Virus record (IMG/VR): IMGVR_UViG_3300050016_000047
Location: 32,443-96,442 of that record
Reading direction: 5' to 3' (one strand)
DNA: 64,000 nucleotides
Source of the DNA: a virus
Positions 666 through 38,025 of this stretch are shown one piece after another (positions within the stretch are counted from its first letter, which is position 1; each line of letters begins with the position of its first letter). Below the pieces are notes generated by a model, which worked only from the letters and a program-made list of their open reading frames with translations, was not told the origin of the DNA and did no database searches. Both the position numbers and the translations under genes were made by a program.

Positions 666-1192
666 GTGATGTAGGCGAATATATCAAGTACAACTTTAAG
701 TATACCATGACTAATCCGCCTAAATACAAGTCATATAAGTTTAATTCAGACTCTATGATTGAGAACAAACTTAAAGACATTCCTATTAGGCAGTTAAGAA
801 GTGGTTTTAAAATGGCTTGTGGAAAAGATTTAACGGGTAAAAAGATTCCAAGTATAAATCTAATATATTTTTATATTCCTACTCCGATGGGTTTTAGTAA
901 AGAACCAGAAGAGGCTACTCCGGCGGTTTGTCAAGTCTCGGCGAACAGAAAAGAAATTCACGACGAGTTGGTTCGCAGACACACAGCTACGTTGCCGCCA
1001 AAAACTCCATCACATCTAACTGTTAAAGATATTCAGGAAATGAAGAAGCAGTTATTGAGTTGTAATTTTAAAGACCCTTATATTTATTATGGTAATTCAA
1101 ACTGGCCGTGGGATTCTACCCCGCCGGTTAAGGTAAAGAAAAATGGAAAACACAAACCAGAACGATCCAGCACCCCCGAATCCGGGGCGTAG
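662..1192 (+). CDS. hypothetical protein upstream of tRNA cluster
   Basis: 176-residue protein, rich in Lys, Pro and Tyr, not recognised. I place the start at GTG 662 because it overlaps the preceding stop as GTGA; a longer TTG start at 644 exists. The last ten bases, including the stop codon at 1190-1192, lie inside the 5' end of the tRNA-Pro gene. Such overlap suggests that the tRNA was inserted into, or trimmed, the 3' end of this gene. Confidence 0.55.
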   Translation: MSDVGEYIKYNFKYTMTNPPKYKSYKFNSDSMIENKLKDIPIRQLRSGFKMACGKDLTGKKIPSINLIYFYIPTPMGFSKEPEEATPAVCQVSANRKEIHDELVRRHTATLPPKTPSHLTVKDIQEMKKQLLSCNFKDPYIYYGNSNWPWDSTPPVKVKKNGKHKPERSSTPESGA

Positions 1193-1256
1193 CTTAAGAC
1201 AGAGCACTTGGTTTGGAACCAAGGCGGTGCAGGTTTAAGTCCTGCTGCCCCGACCA
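1183..1256 (+). tRNA. tRNA-Pro(TGG)
   Basis: Full cloverleaf: acceptor CGGGGCG paired with TGCCCCG, D arm, anticodon stem CTTGG/CCAAG around loop TTTGGAA giving anticodon TGG, a T arm, discriminator A and an encoded CCA end. Confidence 0.9.
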
Positions 1257-1325
1257 GTTTTAAACAGTTTTAAACAGTTTTAAACAGTTTTAAACAGTTT
1301 TAAACAGTTTTAAACAGTTTTTAAA
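1255..1325 (+). repeat. 10-bp tandem repeat CAGTTTTAAA, about 7 units
   Basis: Six perfect units of CAGTTTTAAA run from 1255 to 1314, with a seventh carrying one extra T. They begin within the CCA end of tRNA-Pro. Each unit junction contains the near-palindrome AAACAGTTT, and the 10-bp period matches about one helical turn, so all copies would face the same side of the DNA. Confidence 0.9.
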
Positions 1326-1394
1326 GAACCCACGTTTGTTCTAGAAGCTTGACGTACAATCCGTCCTGTGTGGCCGGGAGAAAAGATATTATTT

Positions 1395-1535
1395 ATGTTA
1401 CTTATATTACTTTTAGTGTTATTGTTATGCGGTGGTGGTTTTGGATATAGTACTTGGGGTCTTGCAGGTGGTGGTGGAATCGGTGGAGTAGTTCTGCTAG
1501 TTATCGTTATACTCCTTTTGACAGGGAGACTATAA
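1395..1535 (+). CDS. DUF3309-like small hydrophobic peptide
   Basis: 46-residue peptide. It has a Leu-rich N-terminal stretch (residues 2-11), a Gly-rich centre with GGGFGY and a second hydrophobic stretch ending in LLTGRL. This matches my memory of the DUF3309 family, tiny bacterial membrane peptides of unknown function. It overlaps the next gene as TAATG at 1533-1537, implying coupled translation. The only GGGAG-like site is rather far upstream (about 15 bases). Confidence 0.7.
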   Translation: MLLILLLVLLLCGGGFGYSTWGLAGGGGIGGVVLLVIVILLLTGRL

Positions 1536-1759
1536 TGATTGGATTATTATTCTTAGTAGTCGTATGCGGCGTACTAGTGTATCTTGTAAACAACCTTGTA
1601 CCCATGGACGGTAAATTCAAACTAGTTTTTAATTGTATAATCGGACTTATTCTATTATACTATGTTTTGAGTTTCTTTGGATTGGTTTCTCCCGCTCCCG
1701 GTTTTGGAGCGTATCCCGGTTATCCGTATCGCGGCGGTCCCGGTCCATACAGATATTAA
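1535..1759 (+). CDS. Thivi_2564-like small membrane protein
   Basis: 74-residue protein with two membrane segments (about residues 2-19 and 27-47) joined by the sequence NNLVPMDGKFK, followed by a Pro/Gly/Tyr-rich tail. The NxxxPMDGK loop is characteristic of bacterial Thivi_2564-type membrane proteins, as I recall them. The start at 1535 is chosen because it overlaps the preceding stop as TAATG; a longer reading frame from 1454 would run across the preceding gene. Function is unknown. Both genes are of a kind usual in bacterial chromosomes and unusual in a phage. Confidence 0.65.
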   Translation: MIGLLFLVVVCGVLVYLVNNLVPMDGKFKLVFNCIIGLILLYYVLSFFGLVSPAPGFGAYPGYPYRGGPGPYRY

Positions 1760-1766
1760 TTTCCAC

Positions 1767-1840
1767 ATAGGAATAAGATAGTGGTAGTCTGGCTGCCTAC
1801 AAATCAGTCAGCGGGTGTTCGATTCACTCTTCCTATGCCA
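1767..1840 (+). tRNA. tRNA with anticodon ACA in standard numbering (isotype uncertain)
   Basis: Acceptor ATAGGAA pairs with TTCCTAT, followed by G and CCA. D stem AGAT/GTCT and T arm GGGTG/CACTC are sound. The anticodon stem GCTGC/TCAGT has a C-U mismatch next to the loop CTACAAA, so the loop can also be seen as nine bases. Standard numbering gives ACA (Cys codon TGT), but G73 and A34 are unusual for Cys; TAC (Val) would need a shifted loop. Confidence 0.6.
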
Positions 1841-1845
1841 TTTAA

Positions 1846-1919
1846 GCGGGCTTGGTGTATTGGCAGCGCCATAGTCTTCCAAACTATAGGAAAGGGTTCG
1901 ATTCCCTTAGTCCGCTCCA
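1846..1919 (+). tRNA. tRNA-Gly(TCC)
   Basis: Acceptor GCGGGCT/AGTCCGC, D stem GTGT/GCGC, anticodon stem ATAGT/ACTAT around CTTCCAA (anticodon TCC), T stem AAGGG/CCCTT, discriminator T as in bacterial tRNA-Gly and an encoded CCA. Confidence 0.92.
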
Positions 1920-1926
1920 TTTCTAA

Positions 1927-1999
1927 TGGCCTGTCGTATAATTGGCAATACGCCTCCCTGTTAAGGAGTACGATGTAGGTTCAAGTCCTACTGGGCCAG
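1927..1999 (+). tRNA. tRNA-Asn(GTT)
   Basis: Acceptor TGGCCTG/TGGGCCA, D stem GTAT/ATAC, anticodon loop CTGTTAA (GTT), T stem GTAGG/CCTAC and discriminator G as expected for Asn. The CCA end is not fully encoded: the sequence continues CCT. Confidence 0.88.
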
Positions 2000-2005
2000 C
2001 CTTTA

Positions 2006-2080
2006 GCTGGACTAGCTCCAATGTAGAGCAGCGCACCTGTAATGCGACGGTTCTCAGTTCAAGTCTGAGGTTCAGCCCCA
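2006..2080 (+). tRNA. tRNA-Thr(TGT), with C at position 33
   Basis: Acceptor GCTGGAC/GTTCAGC, D stem GCTC/GAGC, T stem CTCAG/CTGAG and an encoded CCA. The anticodon loop CCTGTAA gives TGT but has C where U33 is nearly universal, and the outermost anticodon pair is G-A. The discriminator is C. Probably Thr, possibly a weakened tRNA. Confidence 0.7.
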
Positions 2081-3953: not shown

Positions 3954-4547
3954 ATGAAAATTTTACCTAAAGCACTTCTGGCCTGCGTACTTAGTTTATC
4001 ACTAGTTACGTATGGTTGTTCCACAGCACAATTCTTTACTGTACTGGATCAAGTAGCTCCGGCGGTTCTTAACGTTCTTCAGATTGTAACCATATTTACA
4101 GGCCATCCGGCTAACACCGCTCTTTCTACTAAAGTTTCTGCGGACGTTGCCGCAACGGAAAAACTATATTCTGACTATACGTCTGCTTCCTCGGCGGCTC
4201 AGCCCGGCATTAAGAACGATATTAATGCGGCGTTCGTTGTTCTTAATAGCGACCTAGGAGTTATATTCTCTGCCGCACAGGTTAGCGATCATAACACACA
4301 GCTTAAAATTGCCGCCTTAATTGGACTTATTCAAACAAGCGTGAGTATAGCAGAAGCGATAATTCCTTCTCCCACACCAGCCGCAACTCTGTCAAGTAAG
4401 TTAGACGCAGATACTTTAGTTGCATCCTATAATAAAATCCTAACCGCTCCTACAGGCAACAAAGCGGTGGATAAGTATACTCGTACCCACCAACTTCATA
4501 TCCACAGTAAGCTAGCTCGTGTAGCTACTGCCGGGATTCTTAAATAA
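3954..4547 (+). CDS. lipoprotein, unknown function
   Basis: 197 residues. A signal peptide (MKILPKALLACVLSLSLVTYGC) ends in a lipobox-like VTYGC, so the mature protein is probably lipid-anchored at Cys22. The rest is Ala/Ser/Thr-rich and helical, with a conserved-looking ASYNKILTAPTG segment near residue 158. The ribosome site AAGAGGATAC is good. The stop overlaps the protease start as TAATG. It could be an outer spanin-like component, but it is longer than usual for that role. Confidence 0.6.
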   Translation: MKILPKALLACVLSLSLVTYGCSTAQFFTVLDQVAPAVLNVLQIVTIFTGHPANTALSTKVSADVAATEKLYSDYTSASSAAQPGIKNDINAAFVVLNSDLGVIFSAAQVSDHNTQLKIAALIGLIQTSVSIAEAIIPSPTPAATLSSKLDADTLVASYNKILTAPTGNKAVDKYTRTHQLHIHSKLARVATAGILK

Positions 4548-5350
4548 TGCCAGAACTTCCTCTAGTCAATGGGCACAGGTTTGGCTACATACGTAAACCA
4601 GCCGACCACAGAATGTTCGGAATCTCTTCGGTTCCGAACCTAAAACAAGTAACTCTTCCAACCGTATTCGGATTAGACGAGTTCATGCCTCCGGTCAAGG
4701 ACCAAAAAGACCTAGGAGCGTGTACTGCGTTTGCTTCTACTGTAGACCGCGAAGCTATCGCCCGACAGTATGAAAACAAGCAACCGATTCTCTCTCCGTT
4801 GTTTGTATACTACTATTCTCGTCTACTAGACGGCTCTTTAGATGAAGGCGATGCTGGAAGCACTGGCGAAACAACTTGTCAGGTATTCCAGCGATACGGA
4901 GCTTGTCTGGAATCCGAAGACCCTTACATTACTTCTGACTTTCAAAAGATGCCTTTCACGGCACAGATACAAGCTGCGAAAGAGTTTAAGTCTGGAGCAT
5001 ATCACTCTCTGCACACCGTTCAAGATGTGCAGAACTGCATTTTCTCCGGTTATCGCATTCGATTGGGAATGAATGTATACCAAAGTTTTGAAAACATTGG
5101 TTCTAATGGTTTGATGCCAATACCCAGTCACAAAGAAAATGTTTTAGGCGGGCATGAAATCTTAATATACAGGTTTGACAATTCTGTTAAATGTCCAAAC
5201 ACCCATTCAACTGGAGCGTTTCTTGTAAGAAACTCTTGGGGTAGTTCGTGGGGGCAAGCGGGAAGTTTCTGGATGCCCTACGAGGGAATCGTAAGTTCAT
5301 TACTAAACTGTGACTTAAAAATACAACATTTAGGTCCTGCGTGGAAATAG
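4547..5350 (+). CDS. papain-family (C1A) cysteine peptidase
   Basis: 267 residues with a complete papain catalytic set: oxyanion Gln53 and nucleophile Cys59 in VKDQKDLGACTAFA, His203 in GGHEILIYRFD and Asn229 in RNSWGSSWG. Family members cut peptide bonds. No signal peptide or long pro-domain is visible. It sits between a lipoprotein and a holin-like membrane protein with zero or one base of spacing, so I infer a role in cell lysis or in degrading host surface protein. C1A enzymes are uncommon as phage lysis proteins. Confidence 0.85.
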   Translation: MPELPLVNGHRFGYIRKPADHRMFGISSVPNLKQVTLPTVFGLDEFMPPVKDQKDLGACTAFASTVDREAIARQYENKQPILSPLFVYYYSRLLDGSLDEGDAGSTGETTCQVFQRYGACLESEDPYITSDFQKMPFTAQIQAAKEFKSGAYHSLHTVQDVQNCIFSGYRIRLGMNVYQSFENIGSNGLMPIPSHKENVLGGHEILIYRFDNSVKCPNTHSTGAFLVRNSWGSSWGQAGSFWMPYEGIVSSLLNCDLKIQHLGPAWK

Positions 5351-5680
5351 ATGAAAATAGTATCAAACGCTAAAACTTATGACTGGCCGACATGGTTCAT
5401 TGGAATCCTGCGGTCATTTCTAAGCGGTGGTGCTGCGGCTCTCACTACGGGAACTGGTGGTGCTGTTCTTGGCATTCCCGGTCCTATGGTCTGGAAGTTA
5501 ATACTTATTAACTTTGTTCTGATGGGCCTATACCGCATGGGAGAGTTCCTGCAACTACATGGAGCACCAGACCCAGTACTCCAAGCCGCTCTCGCGGATG
5601 CAAAAGCTGCGAGCGACATGACTAGTCAGAAAATTGCAGATATACAAGCCATACCTTCACCAACTGATCCAAAAACTTAG
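5351..5680 (+). CDS. holin-like membrane protein
   Basis: 109 residues. The start codon directly follows the protease stop. Two likely membrane segments are seen (about 14-38, Gly/Ala-rich, and 44-60), followed by an amphipathic, charged C-terminal tail. Size, topology and position after a peptidase suggest a holin, the pore that releases endolysin, but there is no diagnostic motif. It might instead be a membrane anchor for the protease. Confidence 0.5.
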   Translation: MKIVSNAKTYDWPTWFIGILRSFLSGGAAALTTGTGGAVLGIPGPMVWKLILINFVLMGLYRMGEFLQLHGAPDPVLQAALADAKAASDMTSQKIADIQAIPSPTDPKT

Positions 5681-5687
5681 GTAGTGC

Positions 5688-5785
5688 GTCTAGTAAGGGA
5701 AGTTTTCCAATACCCGGTAAGGAACAACTTCCTAAAGACAATCTACAGTGTCATAGATGGCACCTTACTAGACTCCGGGTATTGG
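5688..5785 (+). other. interleaved inverted repeats forming a predicted pseudoknot
   Basis: Stem A: GTCTAGTAAGG (5688-5698) is the perfect complement of CCTTACTAGAC (5763-5773). Stem B: CCAATACCCGG (5707-5717) is the perfect complement of CCGGGTATTGG (5775-5785). The order A-B-A'-B' makes the two 11-bp stems interlock. A third small hairpin, AGGAA/TTCCT with loop CAAC, lies at 5719-5732 between them. The structure starts 8 bases after a stop codon and ends 26 bases before the next start codon. Confidence 0.75.
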
Positions 5786-5811
5786 TACGTCCCCACTCCA
5801 TTAGGAGACCG

Positions 5812-6048
5812 ATGAAAAGACTCACAGTTTTGTTTTTGTTTCTTATGTTTGCAGCCACCTCTGCATCCGCACAAAGTTTTTCTTTTGTTAATAGCTCCTC
5901 GTCCGGTCCAGAAGACCAAAGTTATAACGACAGTTCCGGCACCGGACTTATGGCCGCTCGGCAGGCACTTGGCACAGCACTTCATCAACTTACCTACGGA
6001 GGAGCAACACTTAGTCCTCCCGCTAACTTGCAGGCCATCGTGCAATGA
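5812..6048 (+). CDS. small exported protein
   Basis: 78 residues with a textbook signal peptide (MKRLTVLFLFLMFAATSASAQ). The mature part is Ser-rich and ends with a short Gly/Leu-rich helix. The start is fixed by the ribosome site TTAGGAGACCG; a longer frame from 5782 would run into the pseudoknot arm. The gene may be controlled by the structured RNA immediately upstream. Function unknown. Confidence 0.6.
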   Translation: MKRLTVLFLFLMFAATSASAQSFSFVNSSSSGPEDQSYNDSSGTGLMAARQALGTALHQLTYGGATLSPPANLQAIVQ

Positions 6049-6082
6049 AATGAAGTATAAACATTTAGTAAAGGAAAATTAA

Positions 6083-6394
6083 GTGGCGAACAACTATAAT
6101 ACAAAACCAATTTACTTAGATTCAACAATGGCTTCCGGATGGAGGGCATTGCAGACTCTTAACGTTGGAACTCAGTGGGGTTTTAACGTTAGTTACGTAG
6201 AATGGCAAGCTCCCGTATCAGCGGGCGACAAGTTTGTAATAGTTGACCCGGCAAGCTCTGCTGTTCTTTTAGAAGGGTCTTGTGGTCAAGCTAACGCAGA
6301 CGTACCTTTTGATTTAGGCGACACTCTCCCGGCGTGGCGAGATTTTAAAGTTACTACTCTTAATTCTGGTATTCTACTTATTTGGTATCGCTAG
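6083..6394 (+). CDS. small virion-like protein
   Basis: 103 residues starting with GTG after AAGGAAAATTAA. It is rich in aromatic and beta-forming residues and has no signal peptide (MANNYNTKPIYLDSTMASGW...). It directly abuts the fibre-like gene that follows, so it may be an accessory virion or adaptor protein. The family is not recognised. Confidence 0.5.
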   Translation: MANNYNTKPIYLDSTMASGWRALQTLNVGTQWGFNVSYVEWQAPVSAGDKFVIVDPASSAVLLEGSCGQANADVPFDLGDTLPAWRDFKVTTLNSGILLIWYR

Positions 6395-8884
6395 ATGAAA
6401 AAACTTCTTACTCTCTTAGGGACGATTATTCTGGGGTTTGTCATAACCGGAACCGCTTCAGCACAGTCCGGTATTCGGGCAAATACTTTTAGTGCAACTG
6501 GCGCTGACATAGCTATCAACAATGCAGGAACAGCAATAGCTTTTCACCAGCTTACGTGGGTTAAAACCGGAACTGTTAGCACTTGTACCGTAGCTCTGGA
6601 TACTTCTGCTGACGGCATAACTTGGAGTGCTGGCGGGGCTATCGCTGGACAAACCTGTACTAGCAACGGTCAGTCTGTAATCACAGGCTCTATTGCTAAC
6701 TATGTACGTATGAACGTAACCACGCTTACTGGTGGTGGAACCATTAACGTAACTTGGACCGGATATACAGCAACTCCGGGCGGAAGCATAACATTCGCTG
6801 GAGCGCCTACCGGAAGTTGTTCTGCTGCACAAACCGCTGTAGATTCAACAACCGGAGATTTCTATTCTTGTAATGGCGGTGTGTGGTTAGCAGTTGGTCC
6901 GGGTGCCGCTGGTTCTGCGGCTTTTAGTACTCTAACTGCTGGTACTAACGGCGGGCAAGCTTTAGTGGTTGGAAACGGCTCAACGCTGTCCGTAACCGGA
7001 ACAGGCACCATTGCTGCTACCTCGGCGGCTAAGTGGACAACTGCTCGCAACCTAGCTGGTAATTCTACAGACGGTTCGGCCAATGTCGCGTTCTCAAACA
7101 AATTTATAGTTCAAGGTACAACGGATTCTGGGTTATCGGGACCGCAATTCTTAGGTGCTTTGGGTACGGGTATAGTAAAGAATACAACTACAACTGGTGT
7201 TCTTAGTATAGCAGTTGCCGGAGACTTCCCAACACTAAACCAAAACACTACTGGTTCTTCTGCAACTCTATCCGGTTCTCTTACACAGTGTACTAGCGGA
7301 CAGTTTGCAACAGGTATTACTTCTACAGGAGCTTCTAATTGCAGTACTCCAGCAGGTTCGGGAAACGTGAGTGGCCCAGTTACAAACACCGATGCTTTTG
7401 TTCCTCAGTGGAACGGAGCTAATAGTCTTCTTCTAAAGGACGGGTTGGCCGTAGCGACCGCTAACACCACTTCGGCTCTAGTTCAAAGAGACGGTTCGGG
7501 TAATTTTTCAGCGGGAACCATTACTGCTACTCTTTCTGGTAACGCTTCTACAGTTACTAACGGTGTGACTGCGGCTTCTAACTTTACAAACGCTCAACTA
7601 GTGATTGCCGGTGGAGCTAATAAAACTCTAGCTACTGGTCCCGCGTATGCGTCAACAAACACAGCATCTAACATTGTACAAAGAGATTCTAGTGGAAACT
7701 TTTCCGCTGGAACTATTACCGCGACCTTAACAGGAAACGCTGATACTGTTACCAATGGCGTCACAGCGGCATCTAACTTTACCAACACTTCTATTCTGGT
7801 AGCCGCCGGAGCTAACAAGACTTCCGCCAGTATGGGATCAGACTTCCTTTTTGCGACTCACACAATTACGGCAGGAGCCAGCGGTGTATTAGATATGTCT
7901 GGCGGTAGTTTGTTTAAAACAACCGTGGGTTCGAGTTTTACTTGCGCGGCAGAAGGATGTTTTGGATTCGATACAGGTCCGGGCAAGATGTACCATGTAT
8001 TTGCTAATGGTGCGGATTCTCTGGTAGCTACTAAACCTGTTTCCGTAACCGTAGCAAATAACGATTGTCCTAAGTGGGTGGTAAGTGGAACCAATATATC
8101 TATTGGAACTACCGGCGCTGCTTGCGCGGCAAGCGGTGTATCGGGAACCACTGGATATATTCCTAAGTTTGCCAGTTCGACTACTGTAGGAAATTCCGCC
8201 GTAGACGACGGAGTAACCACAGCTTCTACTATTACATCTACTGAAGCAATCGTAGCTCCTAGTTTTTCTTCGTCCGCAAGCGGAGCAGGATACTTCCAAT
8301 GTACGCAAGGAACTCTTCCCGGCGTCGGTGGTGCTAACACAGCCACACTAACATGCCCGGCAGCAGTTACGGCGTATGAAGCTGTTCTATGGGGAGCGTC
8401 CGCAACCGGAATAGTTCACGCTTCTAATTCTTCCAACGTAGATACTTTGTCTATCAGTGCCGTTGTCGGCGCAGATATGACCAACAACACCGTAACCGCT
8501 ACACAACTTGCTGCTCAATACTCCAAAGATTCTTGTACGGAACTATGGGGTGGAAGCGGTACATCTTTTGCTCTTACTTCTGGAGACGACGCCATATCTA
8601 ATAACTCCTGTTATAACGACTCTGGTGTAACACGAACCATAACAGCGGTTAAGTGTCGTAGCGATAACGGAACCAATACTACTACGGTGAATCCTACATT
8701 TGGTGCAGCGGGGACAGGAACGACCATATTAAGTGGTGCGCTTACCTGTGGTTCTAGTCTAGCTTATAGTTCTAGTGGAACAGTATCAAATGCAAGTTGG
8801 ACAACGGGTACTGGAATTACTCCAGCCATGAGTGGTACGCTTACTGGAACCAGTATTGCCGTGATTGTAGAGTATACATACTAA
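6395..8884 (+). CDS. large exported fibre-like protein with internal repeats
   Basis: 829 residues, mostly Ser, Thr, Gly, Ala and Asn, with a signal peptide (MKKLLTLLGTIILGFVITGTASAQ). Around residues 364-470 a unit containing VQRDGSGNFSAGTITATLSGN and TVTNGVTAASNFTN occurs twice, the pattern of tail-fibre or adhesin shafts. The C-terminal part from about residue 585 (TTGYIPKFASSTTVGNSAVDDG...) resembles the C-terminal domain of the product at 34651. Probably a receptor-binding or surface adhesin; the signal peptide is odd for a virion fibre. Confidence 0.65.
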   Translation: MKKLLTLLGTIILGFVITGTASAQSGIRANTFSATGADIAINNAGTAIAFHQLTWVKTGTVSTCTVALDTSADGITWSAGGAIAGQTCTSNGQSVITGSIANYVRMNVTTLTGGGTINVTWTGYTATPGGSITFAGAPTGSCSAAQTAVDSTTGDFYSCNGGVWLAVGPGAAGSAAFSTLTAGTNGGQALVVGNGSTLSVTGTGTIAATSAAKWTTARNLAGNSTDGSANVAFSNKFIVQGTTDSGLSGPQFLGALGTGIVKNTTTTGVLSIAVAGDFPTLNQNTTGSSATLSGSLTQCTSGQFATGITSTGASNCSTPAGSGNVSGPVTNTDAFVPQWNGANSLLLKDGLAVATANTTSALVQRDGSGNFSAGTITATLSGNASTVTNGVTAASNFTNAQLVIAGGANKTLATGPAYASTNTASNIVQRDSSGNFSAGTITATLTGNADTVTNGVTAASNFTNTSILVAAGANKTSASMGSDFLFATHTITAGASGVLDMSGGSLFKTTVGSSFTCAAEGCFGFDTGPGKMYHVFANGADSLVATKPVSVTVANNDCPKWVVSGTNISIGTTGAACAASGVSGTTGYIPKFASSTTVGNSAVDDGVTTASTITSTEAIVAPSFSSSASGAGYFQCTQGTLPGVGGANTATLTCPAAVTAYEAVLWGASATGIVHASNSSNVDTLSISAVVGADMTNNTVTATQLAAQYSKDSCTELWGGSGTSFALTSGDDAISNNSCYNDSGVTRTITAVKCRSDNGTNTTTVNPTFGAAGTGTTILSGALTCGSSLAYSSSGTVSNASWTTGTGITPAMSGTLTGTSIAVIVEYTY

Positions 8885-9606
8885 TGAAACCATTACTAAT
8901 TATTCTTATTAGTATCATTCTAAGTTCGCCAGTGTTTTCACAACACGTTATAATTGCAAGACGTAGAGCATCTGGCGGCGGAGGCGGTAACGACCCTCTT
9001 ACATACACATTCTCACAAAGTCAGAAAACTACGGGAACGGCTAGTGGCGCGACCGTAACTTTAACACTTAACCCAGCTTTGCACGATGTTGTAATAGCAC
9101 TTGGCGGTTGTGCGAACACTGGTACGCCGACCGTTGTGGATAATGCCGGGAACTCCTATAGCGTGAAAACAGCTTCTTTAGGTTCTGCCGTTGGCAGCCA
9201 GACATTTGTTTTTGCATCAGTTTTGCTTGATGCGCCGTCCAATGCAGATAAACAAATAATTTTGACCTGTCCCGGCGGCGGCTCAAATGCTACTGTATTT
9301 TCGGCTGTGGACGTAACACCAAATACGACAGGGGCTACTTACGATATTTCAAACTCCGGCGGAACAGCTAGTAGCGTAACGTCAGTTACCACGCCGTCTC
9401 TTTCAACGACTTATGCACAAGAGTTTTGTACGTTTTATGAACTTCCAGCCGGGAGTACATCCAGTATAAACTCGCCGTGGACAGGCATAGGAGCAGACGG
9501 AGATTTTGGTGAGGCTGCCTACAACTTAAGTAGTGCGAATCCATCAGTTCCAGCAGCAACTATTTCGAGCGGCAAATACGACTCGGTTCACCTATGCGTA
9601 TACTAA
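8884..9606 (+). CDS. exported beta-sandwich-like protein
   Basis: 240 residues. The start at 8884 overlaps the preceding stop as TAATG and gives a proper signal peptide (MKPLLIILISIILSSPVFSQ); a longer frame from 8797 does not. The mature protein has RRRASGGGGG, then repeated beta strands (VTLTLNPALHDVVIALGG, VVDNAGNSYSV) that suggest a lectin- or Ig-like sandwich. It overlaps the next gene by 13 bases. Function is unknown, likely surface or fibre associated. Confidence 0.55.
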   Translation: MKPLLIILISIILSSPVFSQHVIIARRRASGGGGGNDPLTYTFSQSQKTTGTASGATVTLTLNPALHDVVIALGGCANTGTPTVVDNAGNSYSVKTASLGSAVGSQTFVFASVLLDAPSNADKQIILTCPGGGSNATVFSAVDVTPNTTGATYDISNSGGTASSVTSVTTPSLSTTYAQEFCTFYELPAGSTSSINSPWTGIGADGDFGEAAYNLSSANPSVPAATISSGKYDSVHLCVY

Positions 9607-11525
9607 AAAACCTTTTAGTACTTGTAGCGTTCCTGTTCTTGGCACAATCGGCCAGTGCTGCTACCGTGTACGTCTCTCAGTCTGGCGGTTCGACAAGTTG
9701 CGGTGCAGACGGCACGCAAACTACAACCGCCCTCGCCTCCGTGACTTGGACGGCTGGCAATACATACAAACTTTGCGGCACCTTCACATTTAGCGGTGGG
9801 GTTACCGGAATTGAACCGACCGCCTCCGGTACGATGGGTAACGTTCTCACCATCTACGGCGAAAACAACACGGTCATCCAGTCTCCTTATTTTTCTCATG
9901 GTGGCGGCGGAATCAACATTGATGGACTCTCTTATATCCATATAACCAGTGGAACACCTTGTGGTCAAATTCACAACTCGGTTGAAGCGGTAACTGTTTG
10001 CGATCCTACTATTCAAGATACTGCTAATGGTGATTCATTAGCGAATCAGCAAGACACGACACTAATTCACGCGATTGGTTGTACGAACTGCGAAGTGGAT
10101 AACTGGAATCTACTAAACGCCTATGTAAGCGACCTCTCAGGAGCTATTAAAGATAACACGCAGGTTGTAGCATCTCAGTTTAGCGGGGACGGGAATAGTT
10201 TTCATAACAACAGAGTTATAAATGCGGGCGAAGGCGTAGATTTTGCCCACTACACGACCGCGAACACTTTCCATATCAACAACAACTACTTTCAGAAAAT
10301 CGGTTGGTCGCTGGGTTGTGCGGGTGATAGTTCCTTGGTACAGAAGGTGTGGTTTGACGATAACCACGTTACTGACCCCGGTGTTTGGGCGTTGAATGCC
10401 CACATTAACGGCATCCATTGTTTCAACGGTTCTGGCGGCGGTATTCTCACACTCTACGTCTACAACAATCTGATGGATGGCTCATGGAATACGGGCATCA
10501 CGTCCGGCGTTTTCTTAGAAGGAAATATTAGCAATTGGACGACGAGCACAGGCAAGCTAATCGCGTTCAATAACATCTTTCACACGACGGACAACACAAA
10601 TCCCGGAGACGGCTGGATAGGCGACTTTGCGGGCAACGGGCATTTGGTCTTTAACAACACTTTCCTCGGCGTGAATGGGACATCCTATCTATTCGGTGTT
10701 AGCACGAATGGCGTGCAGACCGCGACAGGGCTGACTTTTGAAAATAATATTCTTCAGGGTGGAGGTCAGGTAATCCGAGACATTGATACGCCCGCGACAT
10801 ATACTAAGATTGACTACAACTTCTATGCAAACTCCGCAACTGGTAACCCCATATGGGAGTTTACATCGGGTTGTCGCGTAAGCAGCTTGGCTGATTGGCA
10901 AGCTTGCTCTCCGTCTCCAGATGCTCACGCACAGGCACAACTTGGCTCCCCGTGGGCAAACCTAAACAACACTACTGGTGTTGTATCCACAGGGTTCGCC
11001 GGGAATACGGGAGGATTAAATCTTACGTCGTTGTGCAGCGGCGATCTAGTTCCTTTGTGTTCTGATATTATTGGGGTTTCCCGTCCGGGTGGTTCAACTG
11101 CTTGGACCGTTGGGGCATATCAGTTTTCTGCTGGTGGTAGCCCAACGGCGGATTTATCGCCAACTAGTATTAGTTTTGGTAACGTAACGACAGGTACAAC
11201 CACCGGGACCAGCACGGTGACGTTAACAAACAATGGCTCAGTAACACTAAATATATCTTCAATCGCTAAAGGTGGCTCTGACACAACAAAATTTAGTTTG
11301 ACTAACGGGTGTAGTACAACTCTTGCCGCGAGTGCTTCTTGCACCTTTACTGTCAGTTTCAGTCCAACCGCAGTTACTAGCTATAGTGCAAATATAACCG
11401 TTACAACAGATGCTAGTACAAGTCCCGATCTTGTGACGTTGACGGGTGCTGGTGTTGCAGCAACTCCGGGCGGAGCGGTTTCTGGTGGAAAATTCGTTTT
11501 AGGTGGCACAGCACTTAATCACTAA
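9594..11525 (+). CDS. exported parallel beta-helix protein with choice-of-anchor D domain
   Basis: 643 residues. Signal peptide (MRILKNLLVLVAFLFLAQSASA), then a right-handed beta-helix-like region to about residue 500, with repeated Asn/Gly-rich turns (NNRVINAG, NNYFQKIG, NNIFHTTDN) as in pectate lyase-like or tailspike proteins. Residues of about 520-625 form a choice-of-anchor D (ASPM/SPD-2/Hydin-like) domain: DLSPTSISFGNVTTG, TLTNNG, CSTTLAASASCTFTVSF. It may bind or cut a surface polysaccharide. The middle of the gene looks more GC-rich than its neighbours, which suggests transfer. Confidence 0.7.
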   Translation: MRILKNLLVLVAFLFLAQSASAATVYVSQSGGSTSCGADGTQTTTALASVTWTAGNTYKLCGTFTFSGGVTGIEPTASGTMGNVLTIYGENNTVIQSPYFSHGGGGINIDGLSYIHITSGTPCGQIHNSVEAVTVCDPTIQDTANGDSLANQQDTTLIHAIGCTNCEVDNWNLLNAYVSDLSGAIKDNTQVVASQFSGDGNSFHNNRVINAGEGVDFAHYTTANTFHINNNYFQKIGWSLGCAGDSSLVQKVWFDDNHVTDPGVWALNAHINGIHCFNGSGGGILTLYVYNNLMDGSWNTGITSGVFLEGNISNWTTSTGKLIAFNNIFHTTDNTNPGDGWIGDFAGNGHLVFNNTFLGVNGTSYLFGVSTNGVQTATGLTFENNILQGGGQVIRDIDTPATYTKIDYNFYANSATGNPIWEFTSGCRVSSLADWQACSPSPDAHAQAQLGSPWANLNNTTGVVSTGFAGNTGGLNLTSLCSGDLVPLCSDIIGVSRPGGSTAWTVGAYQFSAGGSPTADLSPTSISFGNVTTGTTTGTSTVTLTNNGSVTLNISSIAKGGSDTTKFSLTNGCSTTLAASASCTFTVSFSPTAVTSYSANITVTTDASTSPDLVTLTGAGVAATPGGAVSGGKFVLGGTALNH

Positions 11526-20201: not shown

Positions 20202-20421
20202 TAACAAAGCTGTTAAGCAGACCACAACCGCTCCAACCGCAACCATCTCCAGCCAGACATACTACAATACGTATATCTTCGCTGACGATGCTATTTTCTC
20301 CGTGTTCTTGGGTAAGAATCCTGAGACTGGCGAGAAGAACTATAAATTAATGATACAAGAAGCGCCAATGTCGGGTTCAGTTTCCGACCCAGCAAGGCAG
20401 ATTGGTGGATGGGTAAGCTAT
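20195..20421 (+). CDS. major capsid protein, exon 3
   Basis: Encodes ...RNNKAVKQTTTAPTATISSQTYYNTYIFADDAIFSVFLGKNPE...DPARQIGGWVSY. It contains the conserved C-terminal capsid region (YIFADDAIF, ARQIGGW). It ends at T20421, where AAGCTAT pairs with intron GTAGCTT (20430-20436) as a near-perfect P1 with a U-G pair. Confidence 0.75.
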
Positions 20422-20672
20422 TAATTATAGTAGCTTTGCAGAGTAATCTGCATCGAACACAAGGCTATATCGGTGAAACACTCTTTGAGTCAATACCGAG
20501 GGAAGGCCGCGAAAGCGGAACCCGTAGAGACTACACGCCTTGCTCCTTATTTTAAGGATGATGATATAGTCCGTTCTGCATGGCGACATGCAGAGAGTAG
20601 CAGAAATGACTACTCTCGCTATCAAGCGATAACAATTAAGAATACCCGTTATACGAACACCCTTAGGCCGGG
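20422..20672 (+). ncRNA. group I intron 3 in capsid gene (no ORF)
   Basis: 251 bases, the compact form without an endonuclease gene. P1: 20415-20421 with 20430-20436. Core strings CTATATCGGTG, AATACCGAGGGAAG, GGAACCCGTAGAGACTACACG and GATATAGTCC closely match T4-type group IA introns as I remember them. It ends at G20672, which puts exon 4 in frame. Confidence 0.85.
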
Positions 20673-33995: not shown

Positions 33996-34651
33996 TGCAA
34001 CTAAATCCCCAGAACGTACTCAGTCCGGCGATAGTCGGTAATGGATTCACTATTACTGTAAGCGGCGGAAGTGTTTATATTAATTCTTCCACACTAGTTT
34101 TAGTTCCAACTACCGTAGTTAATCTTACCGCGAATTCTGTAAACTATGTATACTTTAATATATTATCTGGGTTTATTTCAGTCAATACTACTGGGTTTCC
34201 TTCGGACGTATATCAAATAGCTACAGCAACAACTGACGGTACTGGAATACGATCCCTCGTAGATAGCCGACCCGATCTTTTCTTATCTTCCAGTGGAGGC
34301 GTTAGCGGAAGACTCGTAGTATCTGGAACTCCTCTAGCGACTAATGCAAGTCAGTTTACTTTAGTTGGTTGGGGAGCCGGAGTTACTAAAGCGGTTACTG
34401 GATTTGATGGCGGCCATAGACTTACTATTACTTGTGGAACAACCCCGTCGGTTTCACCAACTTTTGCATTGACGTTTGTGGACGGTCCTTTTACAAACGC
34501 TCCGCTAATCACTGGACAGAAGACTTCTGGTACTGGTAGTTGGTCTGATTTAAAAGTAGTTAGTACTACGACTGGGTATACCGCGACTTTCGAAGACCTT
34601 CCTGTTGCAACCAAGACTTATGAGTTTACAATACTCAATATAGGAATATAA
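33995..34651 (+). CDS. fibre or baseplate-like protein
   Basis: 218 residues starting at a TAATG overlap and ending in another with the next gene. Beta-rich (NGFTITVSGGSVYINSSTLVLVPTTVVNLTANSVNYVYFNILSG...), of a type often placed before tail spikes in phages. It could be an adaptor for the large fibre that follows. Confidence 0.5.
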   Translation: MQLNPQNVLSPAIVGNGFTITVSGGSVYINSSTLVLVPTTVVNLTANSVNYVYFNILSGFISVNTTGFPSDVYQIATATTDGTGIRSLVDSRPDLFLSSSGGVSGRLVVSGTPLATNASQFTLVGWGAGVTKAVTGFDGGHRLTITCGTTPSVSPTFALTFVDGPFTNAPLITGQKTSGTGSWSDLKVVSTTTGYTATFEDLPVATKTYEFTILNIGI

Positions 34652-37600
34652 TGAAAAAACTTCTATTATACACTTTACTAGTGTTTGGTTTGTCCTCTCC
34701 AATCCTTGCTCAGACTTCTAAGACTGGGCGAATTATGGAGAACACTCTAGCGAATCGCCCCGCGACTTGCGATCCTACAGACGTGTTTGCCCAAACCGAT
34801 TCTCCATATCTTATGTTTAGCTGCGGTCCTGCGAATACATGGGAACCTATGGCGTTAGCGACTCCGACTTTTATAACTACTGGTAGTGAAACCAATCTTC
34901 CTAATTCTCGTCAGTTGGTTGCAGGAACGAACACGACAATCGACACTGGAACACCAGGCCAGATCAAGGTGAATTCGAGTGCCGGAGCGGGCGGTGTCCC
35001 TACTTTTTCGACGGTGAGTTATTCGGCTACGCCGGTGTACCCGTTAACGGGAAATGACGTTCTGTCTATGACGGTAGCGGGGGATGTAAGTTCTTCGACG
35101 ACAAGTGGCTCTCCTGTGGCGGGGTGGCAGGTAACATTCCAAATCAAAGAGGACTCGACGGGTGGCAGGAACCGCGTGTTTGTGTGGCCTACCTCGTTCA
35201 ACCAGCAGCCGCTCCTAATTATTAGTCCGCTCCAGATTTCGACGTTCACGTTCCAGTACAACGGGACGAAGTGGATACTAGTGAGCCACCACACCGATGA
35301 CGCATGGTCGGTGCAATACGCCTCTCCTTTTGGAAATGACGCAAATGACGGCAAGAGTTGGGCGACTGCTAAGTTTGCAATGGAGGCCGCGGCGTGCTCG
35401 CTGTACCTCGGTAATTGCACAACGCGCACGACCGGCTATGGTCATGTTTATTTCGCTGAGGGCACCCACGCGTGGGCTAGCAGCACTGCTTATGGTTTGC
35501 GAATGATGACGAGTGGTGACCCAGCCTTTAATTCCACCAATCCTCCTGCCGGATGGATGAACTCTACGGGGCAGACCTTTGGCTTTAGTGGCGTAGGCTG
35601 CGGAAGTCACAATCAAGGACTGGAACCAGCCTGCTCGATGGTTGGCACCACGGCCGACGGAGTGAGCATCCAGACGAGCAGTATGTCGGAGCCGCAGGAG
35701 TTTCAGGACATCGTTACAGGTGGCCAAGTTCTTGTCGGTATCTGCTCCGACTATACCCGAGCCAATTCTTGCGGTTCCGTTACCGAGACATTCAGGAACG
35801 TACAGGCGAATGGAACGCTTGCACATGGCTCCGCGTTCGCTGTGGGAGCAAATTCGTTCTGGATTCACTTCTTCGAGTGTGGCTGGCAGGCATACAACAT
35901 CCCGGCGACAATAGTATCCACGACCAATATGGGATTATCGAGAGCGTCTGGTATTGTCACGGTTACGACGACCGCTCCGCACGCATTCTCATCCACTTCC
36001 GGTGCGACCACCTATCCGTTCCCGGATAGAGTATTGATCGAAGACGCCGATGATCCGACTTTCGACGGTACGTTTGTCATCACCGGAACGCCAACGAGCA
36101 CATCGTTTACCTACCTACAGACCGGATTACCGAACGCCACAAGCGAACGCGGAGCCGCAATCGTAGACCGCAACTTCGGAGGAGATATTGATGATTTCGG
36201 CGCGATGGGGGATTTTACGCAGGGATACATCTCCGTCGTCGGAGGCGAGGGGCACTATGGCGGATGGCGTTGGTGGAACGATGGCGGCAACGGAGACGGG
36301 ATGGTGTTCCAAGGCTATATCGTAGAAGGAGACTTTGCGGTGACCGCACCGGCATTTGCATACGATTCGCATGGTGGCAGTATATTGATGGCGACGGTGG
36401 ATCAGATAAGGCTGGCCGATAACGCCGGGGTCGGGAACACGGCTGTGATAGACCCTAGCGCCGTTGCGTTCGCTGGTGGTCTGCGTATTGGAAGTGGAAT
36501 TGACGTATTCGGTCCCGGCCAAGTCGGCTATCCAGATACGCTTAACCAAAAGAATCCGCTCACGCAGTCTCAATACGGGATGTTCAGAGGGCATCTGTAC
36601 GGCGTGCCGCCCGACGCCGGGGAATCAACTCCCATATTCGTTCGGTATCCAAACCTCTTTAACACGTCTGTAGCTACCCTAGAAACAAATTGCACCAACG
36701 TCGGGGCAACACCTGCCCTTTATGCGGACCACCAGGGCGGGATGAACGGCGTGTCCTGCACGAGTGCTGGCGGCACGCCTCTGCAATGGAATTTTTCTAG
36801 TGTCGCTTTAACTAGTGTTCACGTCGGAGACTACATAGTAGTGGCCGAGCGGGCTATTAACATAAACCCGCACGCCCTTGGGAACAGAGGGACTAGTCCC
36901 GATGCGATAGCGATAAATGATTTGAGTTGGGGTGGCGATACAGTTACTTATGCCGCCGTGCCTAATCTTAACATCGTCGCCACCGGTCAAGGGGACAGTA
37001 ATTACGAGTGGGTCTTAGCAGTGAGAAAGATTGCCACGACGACAAGCAGCACGCCTACGGCGCTGTGGTACGAGCTAGTTGACAATATTCGCGGGCGGAT
37101 CGTAGACCAAAGCAGCATGATGTTCCTTCATATTCCTTATAACGACCCTCTTGCCACGGACAACGAAGTCGTGAACTTGGCGGCAACGCTGCGTTCTTAT
37201 CCAAGTACAGCAGCGGTAGGGGAAATGTGGGCAGGCCCGCAGCAGATCACGCACAACATCTCGGGACTTACCACGGGCTTTATTCCAAAGGCTGGCAGCG
37301 CCACCACGATCAGCGCCAACTCCGCCTGCGACGATAGCGTTACCACCGCGACCACGATCACCTGCACTGAGCCCCTTGTGGCCACGTCGTTGACAGCAAC
37401 GGGCAGCGGCGCCGGTGTGCTTCAGCTGGGCAACGGCTCAGCGCCGTCGCTGCTCGCCAACGGCTTTTCATTCTTTGCTCCAGTCACCATCACAACGGGA
37501 TTCGGATGGAGTGCTCCTGCAGGTGAAAACGCCAGCGCCGGGCTTTTGCATCTTGCTGCTGCGGCCAGCCACATATCGGCGGCGACTGTAAGCGCCGTCA

Positions 37601-38025
37601 CCAGCGCGGATATGGCCGTGGTGAACACGCGGCAAACCTGCGACATTCCGGTGGGCGACACCAGCGCCAGCGCGCTCGCCAACGCGCAGCTCGGACCACA
37701 GTCGCGCATCTGCTACATTCCCGCCGCCGCCACGATCGTGGAGATGGACGTGAACGCCGACGCCGGCACGCCAAACGTGATCGTGGGCCGAAACCACGCC
37801 GGGACGATCGCTAATGTAGTTTCCGCGGCTCTGGCCACGGCTGCCTCGGGCGGGATCGCCTGCACGAATACGGGCGGCACCACCGGGATCGACGGCGCCA
37901 CCACCTGCACCAACACACTGCAAAACACCAGCCTATCCGCTGGCGACTACCTGGAGCTGGTGAGCGGCACGGCCGGCGGCACCGCTAAGTTTTTCGTTGT
38001 GCACGTGATCTACACGATCAACTGA
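34651..38025 (+). CDS. very large exported beta-helix tailspike-like protein
   Basis: 1124 residues with a signal peptide (MKKLLLYTLLVFGLSSPILAQ). From about residue 222 the YASPFGNDANDGKSWATAKFAMEAA motif is the usual entry to a right-handed beta-helix, followed by Gly/Asn-rich coils to about residue 700. The C-terminal part (GFIPKAGSATTISANSACDDSVTTATTITCTEPL...) resembles the C-terminus of the product at 6395. Bases from about 34.93 kb onward are distinctly GC-rich. Likely a host-surface polysaccharide-binding or -degrading fibre acquired by recombination. Confidence 0.7.
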   Translation: MKKLLLYTLLVFGLSSPILAQTSKTGRIMENTLANRPATCDPTDVFAQTDSPYLMFSCGPANTWEPMALATPTFITTGSETNLPNSRQLVAGTNTTIDTGTPGQIKVNSSAGAGGVPTFSTVSYSATPVYPLTGNDVLSMTVAGDVSSSTTSGSPVAGWQVTFQIKEDSTGGRNRVFVWPTSFNQQPLLIISPLQISTFTFQYNGTKWILVSHHTDDAWSVQYASPFGNDANDGKSWATAKFAMEAAACSLYLGNCTTRTTGYGHVYFAEGTHAWASSTAYGLRMMTSGDPAFNSTNPPAGWMNSTGQTFGFSGVGCGSHNQGLEPACSMVGTTADGVSIQTSSMSEPQEFQDIVTGGQVLVGICSDYTRANSCGSVTETFRNVQANGTLAHGSAFAVGANSFWIHFFECGWQAYNIPATIVSTTNMGLSRASGIVTVTTTAPHAFSSTSGATTYPFPDRVLIEDADDPTFDGTFVITGTPTSTSFTYLQTGLPNATSERGAAIVDRNFGGDIDDFGAMGDFTQGYISVVGGEGHYGGWRWWNDGGNGDGMVFQGYIVEGDFAVTAPAFAYDSHGGSILMATVDQIRLADNAGVGNTAVIDPSAVAFAGGLRIGSGIDVFGPGQVGYPDTLNQKNPLTQSQYGMFRGHLYGVPPDAGESTPIFVRYPNLFNTSVATLETNCTNVGATPALYADHQGGMNGVSCTSAGGTPLQWNFSSVALTSVHVGDYIVVAERAININPHALGNRGTSPDAIAINDLSWGGDTVTYAAVPNLNIVATGQGDSNYEWVLAVRKIATTTSSTPTALWYELVDNIRGRIVDQSSMMFLHIPYNDPLATDNEVVNLAATLRSYPSTAAVGEMWAGPQQITHNISGLTTGFIPKAGSATTISANSACDDSVTTATTITCTEPLVATSLTATGSGAGVLQLGNGSAPSLLANGFSFFAPVTITTGFGWSAPAGENASAGLLHLAAAASHISAATVSAVTSADMAVVNTRQTCDIPVGDTSASALANAQLGPQSRICYIPAAATIVEMDVNADAGTPNVIVGRNHAGTIANVVSAALATAASGGIACTNTGGTTGIDGATTCTNTLQNTSLSAGDYLELVSGTAGGTAKFFVVHVIYTIN

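Follow-up and report, generated by a model that had tools for sequence, protein, structure and literature searches.

Arrangement of the interleaved arms between two viral genes

The gap between a gene for a small membrane protein and a gene for an exported protein in the DNA analysed here (hereafter the window: 64,000 nucleotides, bases 32,443 to 96,442 of a 96,442-base virus record) contains two perfect 11-bp complements whose arms are interleaved, and these interleaved arms are a real, non-random sequence feature. We tentatively favour the reading that they belong to an RNA structure between the two cistrons that controls how strongly the exported-protein gene downstream is expressed.

On the plus strand, the arms follow one another in the order A-B-A'-B', exactly at the positions given by the original prediction. 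Arm A (GTCTAGTAAGG, 5688-5698), the 5' strand of helix A, is matched at 11 of 11 positions by A' (CCTTACTAGAC, 5763-5773; duplex -15.8 kcal/mol), and arm B (CCAATACCCGG, 5707-5717), the 5' strand of helix B, is matched equally completely by B' (CCGGGTATTGG, 5775-5785; duplex -19.1 kcal/mol), all pairs being Watson-Crick. The linker between A and B is 8 nt and the junction between B and A' 45 nt (5718-5762), while B' begins 1 nt 3' of A', leaving a loop of the single base 5774. The third, internal 5-bp hairpin of the original prediction is present on the same strand (hairpin D, ATCTA 5741-5745 with TAGAT 5754-5758, spanning 5741-5758), but a better internal helix is the 7-bp stem of hairpin C (GGAAGTT 5698-5704 with AACTTCC 5726-5732; plus strand, 5698-5732), which is seen in both sequence and fold, encloses arm B in its loop and is able to stack on helix A, with which it has base 5698 in common.

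Both flanking genes lie on the same strand as each other, and the element is located between the upstream stop codon and the next ribosome site. The upstream gene (5351-5680, plus strand) encodes 109 aa and ends in TAG (5678-5680, plus strand), which is separated from helix A by a 7-nt spacer, GTAGTGC. Its earlier description as holin-like was not borne out by any family match. Five viral relatives of its product were found, four of which were aligned (47-67% identical) and end at the same place. The downstream gene (5812-6048, plus strand) encodes 78 aa with an N-terminal signal-peptide-like stretch, and no relatives of this protein were found in searches that included viral contigs and protein families. 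A Shine-Dalgarno AGGAG (5803-5807) precedes its ATG at 5812 (together annotated at 5803-5815, plus strand), as had been predicted, about 17-18 nt from B'. CTCC at 5796-5799 is complementary to GGAG at 5804-5807 of this ribosome site, so local pairing is possible.

Non-random character of the element

Within the window, these two are the only perfect complements of at least 11 bp spanning at most 120 nt, against 1.43 expected by chance. The number of helices is thus not in excess, and the signal lies in their interleaving with A' and B' only 1 nt apart. Interleaved pairs within a span of 120 were absent from all 1205 simulated windows; with a span of 100, they were found in one of 4774 simulated windows when both helices had to reach at least 11 bp, in eight of 4774 when the two lengths only had to add up to 22 or more, and in none of 4774 when A' and B' had to be separated by no more than 2 nt. 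Ranking of all 2828 136-nt segments of the whole 96-kb record by the summed stacking energy of crossing helices placed the element first; the two next-ranked segments (35667 and 37333) are inside a long coding frame, whereas the element is outside any long frame. At -43.0, its crossing-helix energy was lower than that of any of 4000 dinucleotide shuffles, for which the mean was -22.5 (sd 3.0) and the minimum -39.1, and its nested folding energy had a z of -2.5. The simulated windows, the genome rank and the shuffles therefore support the original prediction that two such interleaved matches are very unlikely by chance.

The element lies between the two genes, as had been suggested, but the gap is not plainly non-coding because it is open in two frames. 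Frame 0 remains open for 44 codons beyond the upstream TAG, with a GTG 4 nt 3' of that stop, and the frame of the downstream gene is itself open from 5668. When the gap frame was treated as coding and recoded synonymously, an interleaved 10/10 pair arose in only 1 of 100,000 recodings, and hence coding does not explain the arms.

Predicted folding and geometry

In a 200-nt context, the nested fold with helix B reached -55.0 kcal/mol and the rod formed by helix A and hairpin C (with the upper four pairs) -48.9 kcal/mol, and helices A and B compete with these nested folds. With B held and A left free, the energy was -41.3; adding helix A (-15.8) and subtracting a pseudoknot penalty, we estimate that the double structure would be comparable in energy to the nested folds. 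Simultaneous formation of both helices as a pseudoknot is thus predicted to be possible but unusual. The stems are interleaved as in a classical H-type pseudoknot; however, the loop between A' and B' has 1 nt, compared with the at least 3 nt used in a published search (PMC3835772), and the junction is 45 nt rather than short. This geometry rules out the coaxial stacking common in H-type pseudoknots. If A' and B' were stacked as one strand, the 8-nt linker would have to bridge approximately 59-62 angstroms, whereas its maximum is approximately 58.5. According to this model, the shortfall can be resolved by a bend at U5774 or by fraying of a pair or two.

Folding energies of the plus and minus strands were nearly equal (-42.6 vs -42.4), and, together with the perfect Watson-Crick arms, this means that RNA and DNA are not told apart. 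The GGAG of the ribosome site was locally paired in every modelled state, so the folding model alone shows no access switch. An intrinsic terminator was considered and rejected, as the stem is not followed by a T-run.

Searches for relatives and comparison with known systems

Rfam covariance models, including those of HDV-like ribozymes and riboswitches, gave no match to the element either at gathering thresholds or at E values up to 5, in agreement with the earlier remark that no RNA family of such a shape is known to have been described. DNA searches of phages and plasmids detected no homologue, and the element is present in a single copy in its own genome. It was likewise not found by an exact 18-mer search of viral contigs, by genome searches using the upstream-protein alignment and a 50-aa read-through query, or by following neighbouring proteins (the peptidase, a 103-aa protein, the terminase, the exported protein and the holin-like protein) in viral contigs. 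All five viruses carrying a relative of the upstream protein lack the element and have other genes at that place. With a single occurrence and no homologue in the collections searched, there is no covariation support, and the element is so far a single unconserved instance.

The nearest functional parallel is the leader pseudoknot of T4 gene 32, a compact H-type structure located 67 nt upstream of the start, which is bound by gp32 and controls translation and whose T2 homologue is coaxially stacked (PMC3014915). Both are phage messenger pseudoknots (predicted in the present case) upstream of a ribosome site, but the element described here differs in its 11-bp stems, its 45-nt inner and 1-nt outer loops and its downstream product, an exported protein. 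Because the loop geometry differs and this type is defined by binding of the downstream gene's product, we do not claim membership of the T4 gene 32 type. Pseudoknots that control translation in phages have seldom been described, and a review from 2010 regarded the T4-type gene 32 pseudoknot as possibly the sole viral case in translational autoregulation (PMC3014915). If the regulatory reading is true, a second such pseudoknot, of different geometry and from an uncultured virus, would widen the known set.

Viral recoding signals offer another comparison. A spacing of 6-9 nt has been reported for viral frameshift stimulators, and the pseudoknots that promote readthrough hold first or second rank within their respective genomes (PMC3835772). 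Like a UAG readthrough pseudoknot of the Mo-MuLV type, the element has interleaved stems a few nucleotides past a UAG (7 nt from the stop to stem 1, within 6-9 nt), an open frame beyond and first rank in its genome. It differs from this type in its loop lengths, in having no meaningful conserved C-terminal extension, in its bacterial host and in that any extended protein would be hypothetical. In IncI-type plasmids, the repZ/leader-peptide pseudoknot is formed by loop-to-leader pairing under the control of an antisense RNA; there, as here, a structure separates the place where one ribosome terminates from the ribosome site that follows, and no antisense partner was found for the present element. 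HDV-like ribozymes have the order P1-P2-hairpin-P1'-P2', with a P1 of 7 bp, and their pairing elements are ordered in the same way as those of the element. This candidate was not supported; the corresponding P1 has 11 bp rather than 7, 45 nt separate B from A', and 1 nt stands in place of P4 and the catalytic C.

A putative intercistronic regulator and its alternatives

We infer transcription across the gap, simultaneous folding of the helices and a regulatory role, the role being deduced to act in cis from position and anatomy. Helices A and B may fold, together with the enclosed hairpin C, as a compact bent pseudoknot; alternatively, the RNA could switch between the rod of A and C and the B hairpin. 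The 3' end of the element, by its distance from the Shine-Dalgarno, would coincide with the upstream edge of the 30S binding zone, and a ribosome terminating at the upstream stop would be expected to unwind arm A, which begins so shortly after it. The likeliest role would then be to set the output of the exported protein, whether by governing access of the ribosome, by coupling it to translation of the upstream gene, or by responding to a bound protein or ligand. Such a role is consistent with the rarity of the interleaving, the first rank, the perfect helices, the folding z, the position from stop to ribosome site, the missing T-run (which argues against an intrinsic terminator) and the improbability of the arms even if the frame is coding, and it has a precedent in the phage leader pseudoknot of T4 gene 32 (PMC3014915). 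On the other hand, there is no homologue and hence no covariation, the exported-protein gene is also without a known relative, the nested B fold is at least as stable as the estimated two-helix state, the 1-nt loop is unlike those of described H-type pseudoknots, the arms and strand energies fit DNA equally well, and the constantly paired GGAG gives no clear switch.

A plausible though unlikely alternative is a small gene of 43 codons (5684-5815, plus strand) that starts at GTG 5684, where ribosomes would reinitiate after terminating at the upstream stop, and is coupled to the next gene through ATGA, its TGA overlapping the next ATG; the arms would then be coincidental or secondary. The open frame, its start so close behind the stop and its end on the next ATG would suit such a gene, another small frame of this phage (3332-3484, plus strand) fills a gap and ends in an ATGA overlap with the next gene (3481), and in its choice among synonymous codons the 43-codon frame falls within what real genes show (8.5% of gene windows are as low). 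However, the whole-codon score is non-coding-like, below 99% of in-frame windows, no Shine-Dalgarno was found at the usual spacing before the GTG, a second frame is also open, coding alone does not yield the arms, and no protein homologue was accepted. One match to the 43-aa frame, in L008, was rejected, as it runs antisense to a gene of a minus-strand operon and is founded on an 8-residue seed. Alternatively, the element could stimulate recoding, some ribosomes either reading through the UAG into the 44 codons or shifting to -1 at A_AAA (5671-5674) and continuing in the frame of the downstream gene. We consider this very unlikely; that a DNA phage, in the manner of a retrovirus, uses a large non-classical pseudoknot 7 nt past the UAG to give a fixed share of its membrane protein a C-terminal extension, by readthrough or a shift, appears highly improbable. 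The spacer length and genome rank agree with the published stimulators (PMC3835772) and both frames are open, but relatives of the upstream protein stop at the same place, the extension is without relatives and scores as non-coding, approximately one-tenth of long-frame stops are followed by an equally open extension by chance, the signal peptide would end up buried in a -1 fusion, and the loop is shorter than the at least 3 nt of the H-type search in PMC3835772. Moreover, this phage uses UAG as a normal stop codon (20 of 59) and no suppressor tRNA was seen. A suppressor tRNA or recoded UAG and hopping of the T4 gene 60 type were also considered and not supported.

Chance alignment without function is quite unlikely: a frequency of approximately 1 in 5000 for each window can be attained when many windows and many possible shapes are scanned, and conservation is lacking, but the intergenic position, the A'-B' spacing, the first genome rank and the extra stem C would all have to coincide. 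Decidedly unlikely as well is an element for messenger processing or stability that blocks an exonuclease or directs nuclease cleavage to a site between the genes; the intercistronic position and strong helices would fit, yet no known nuclease-resistance or ribozyme family matched, and the interleaving is explained no better than by an intercistronic regulator. It would be most surprising if the inverted arms served as DNA in recombination, replication or protein binding, because arms that are interleaved instead of mirrored would be strange in a dimer site or a cruciform, and the element is single copy with no known site family recognised, even though its perfect arms and equal strand energies do not separate RNA from DNA.

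Other features of the window

A papain-family (PF00112) cysteine protease gene (4547-5350, plus strand) precedes the membrane-protein gene, and in L004 a 45% identical relative is found close to the same membrane-protein gene but on the other strand. From 5812 to 11525 (plus strand), the window encodes a series of proteins that begin with signal-peptide-like stretches, among them repeat-rich proteins of 829 aa and 643 aa; such starts are unusual for phage fibre-like proteins. A second stretch 49% identical to residues 585-659 of the 829-aa protein is encoded at 37270-37494 (plus strand), within a 1124-aa frame (34651-38025). A covariance-model match to a group I intron (61 bits) was found at 20412-20593 (plus strand). 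Five tRNA matches are clustered at 1183-2077 (plus strand), the fifth of which (2006-2077; anticodon UGU by Rfam alignment) was missed by ARAGORN.
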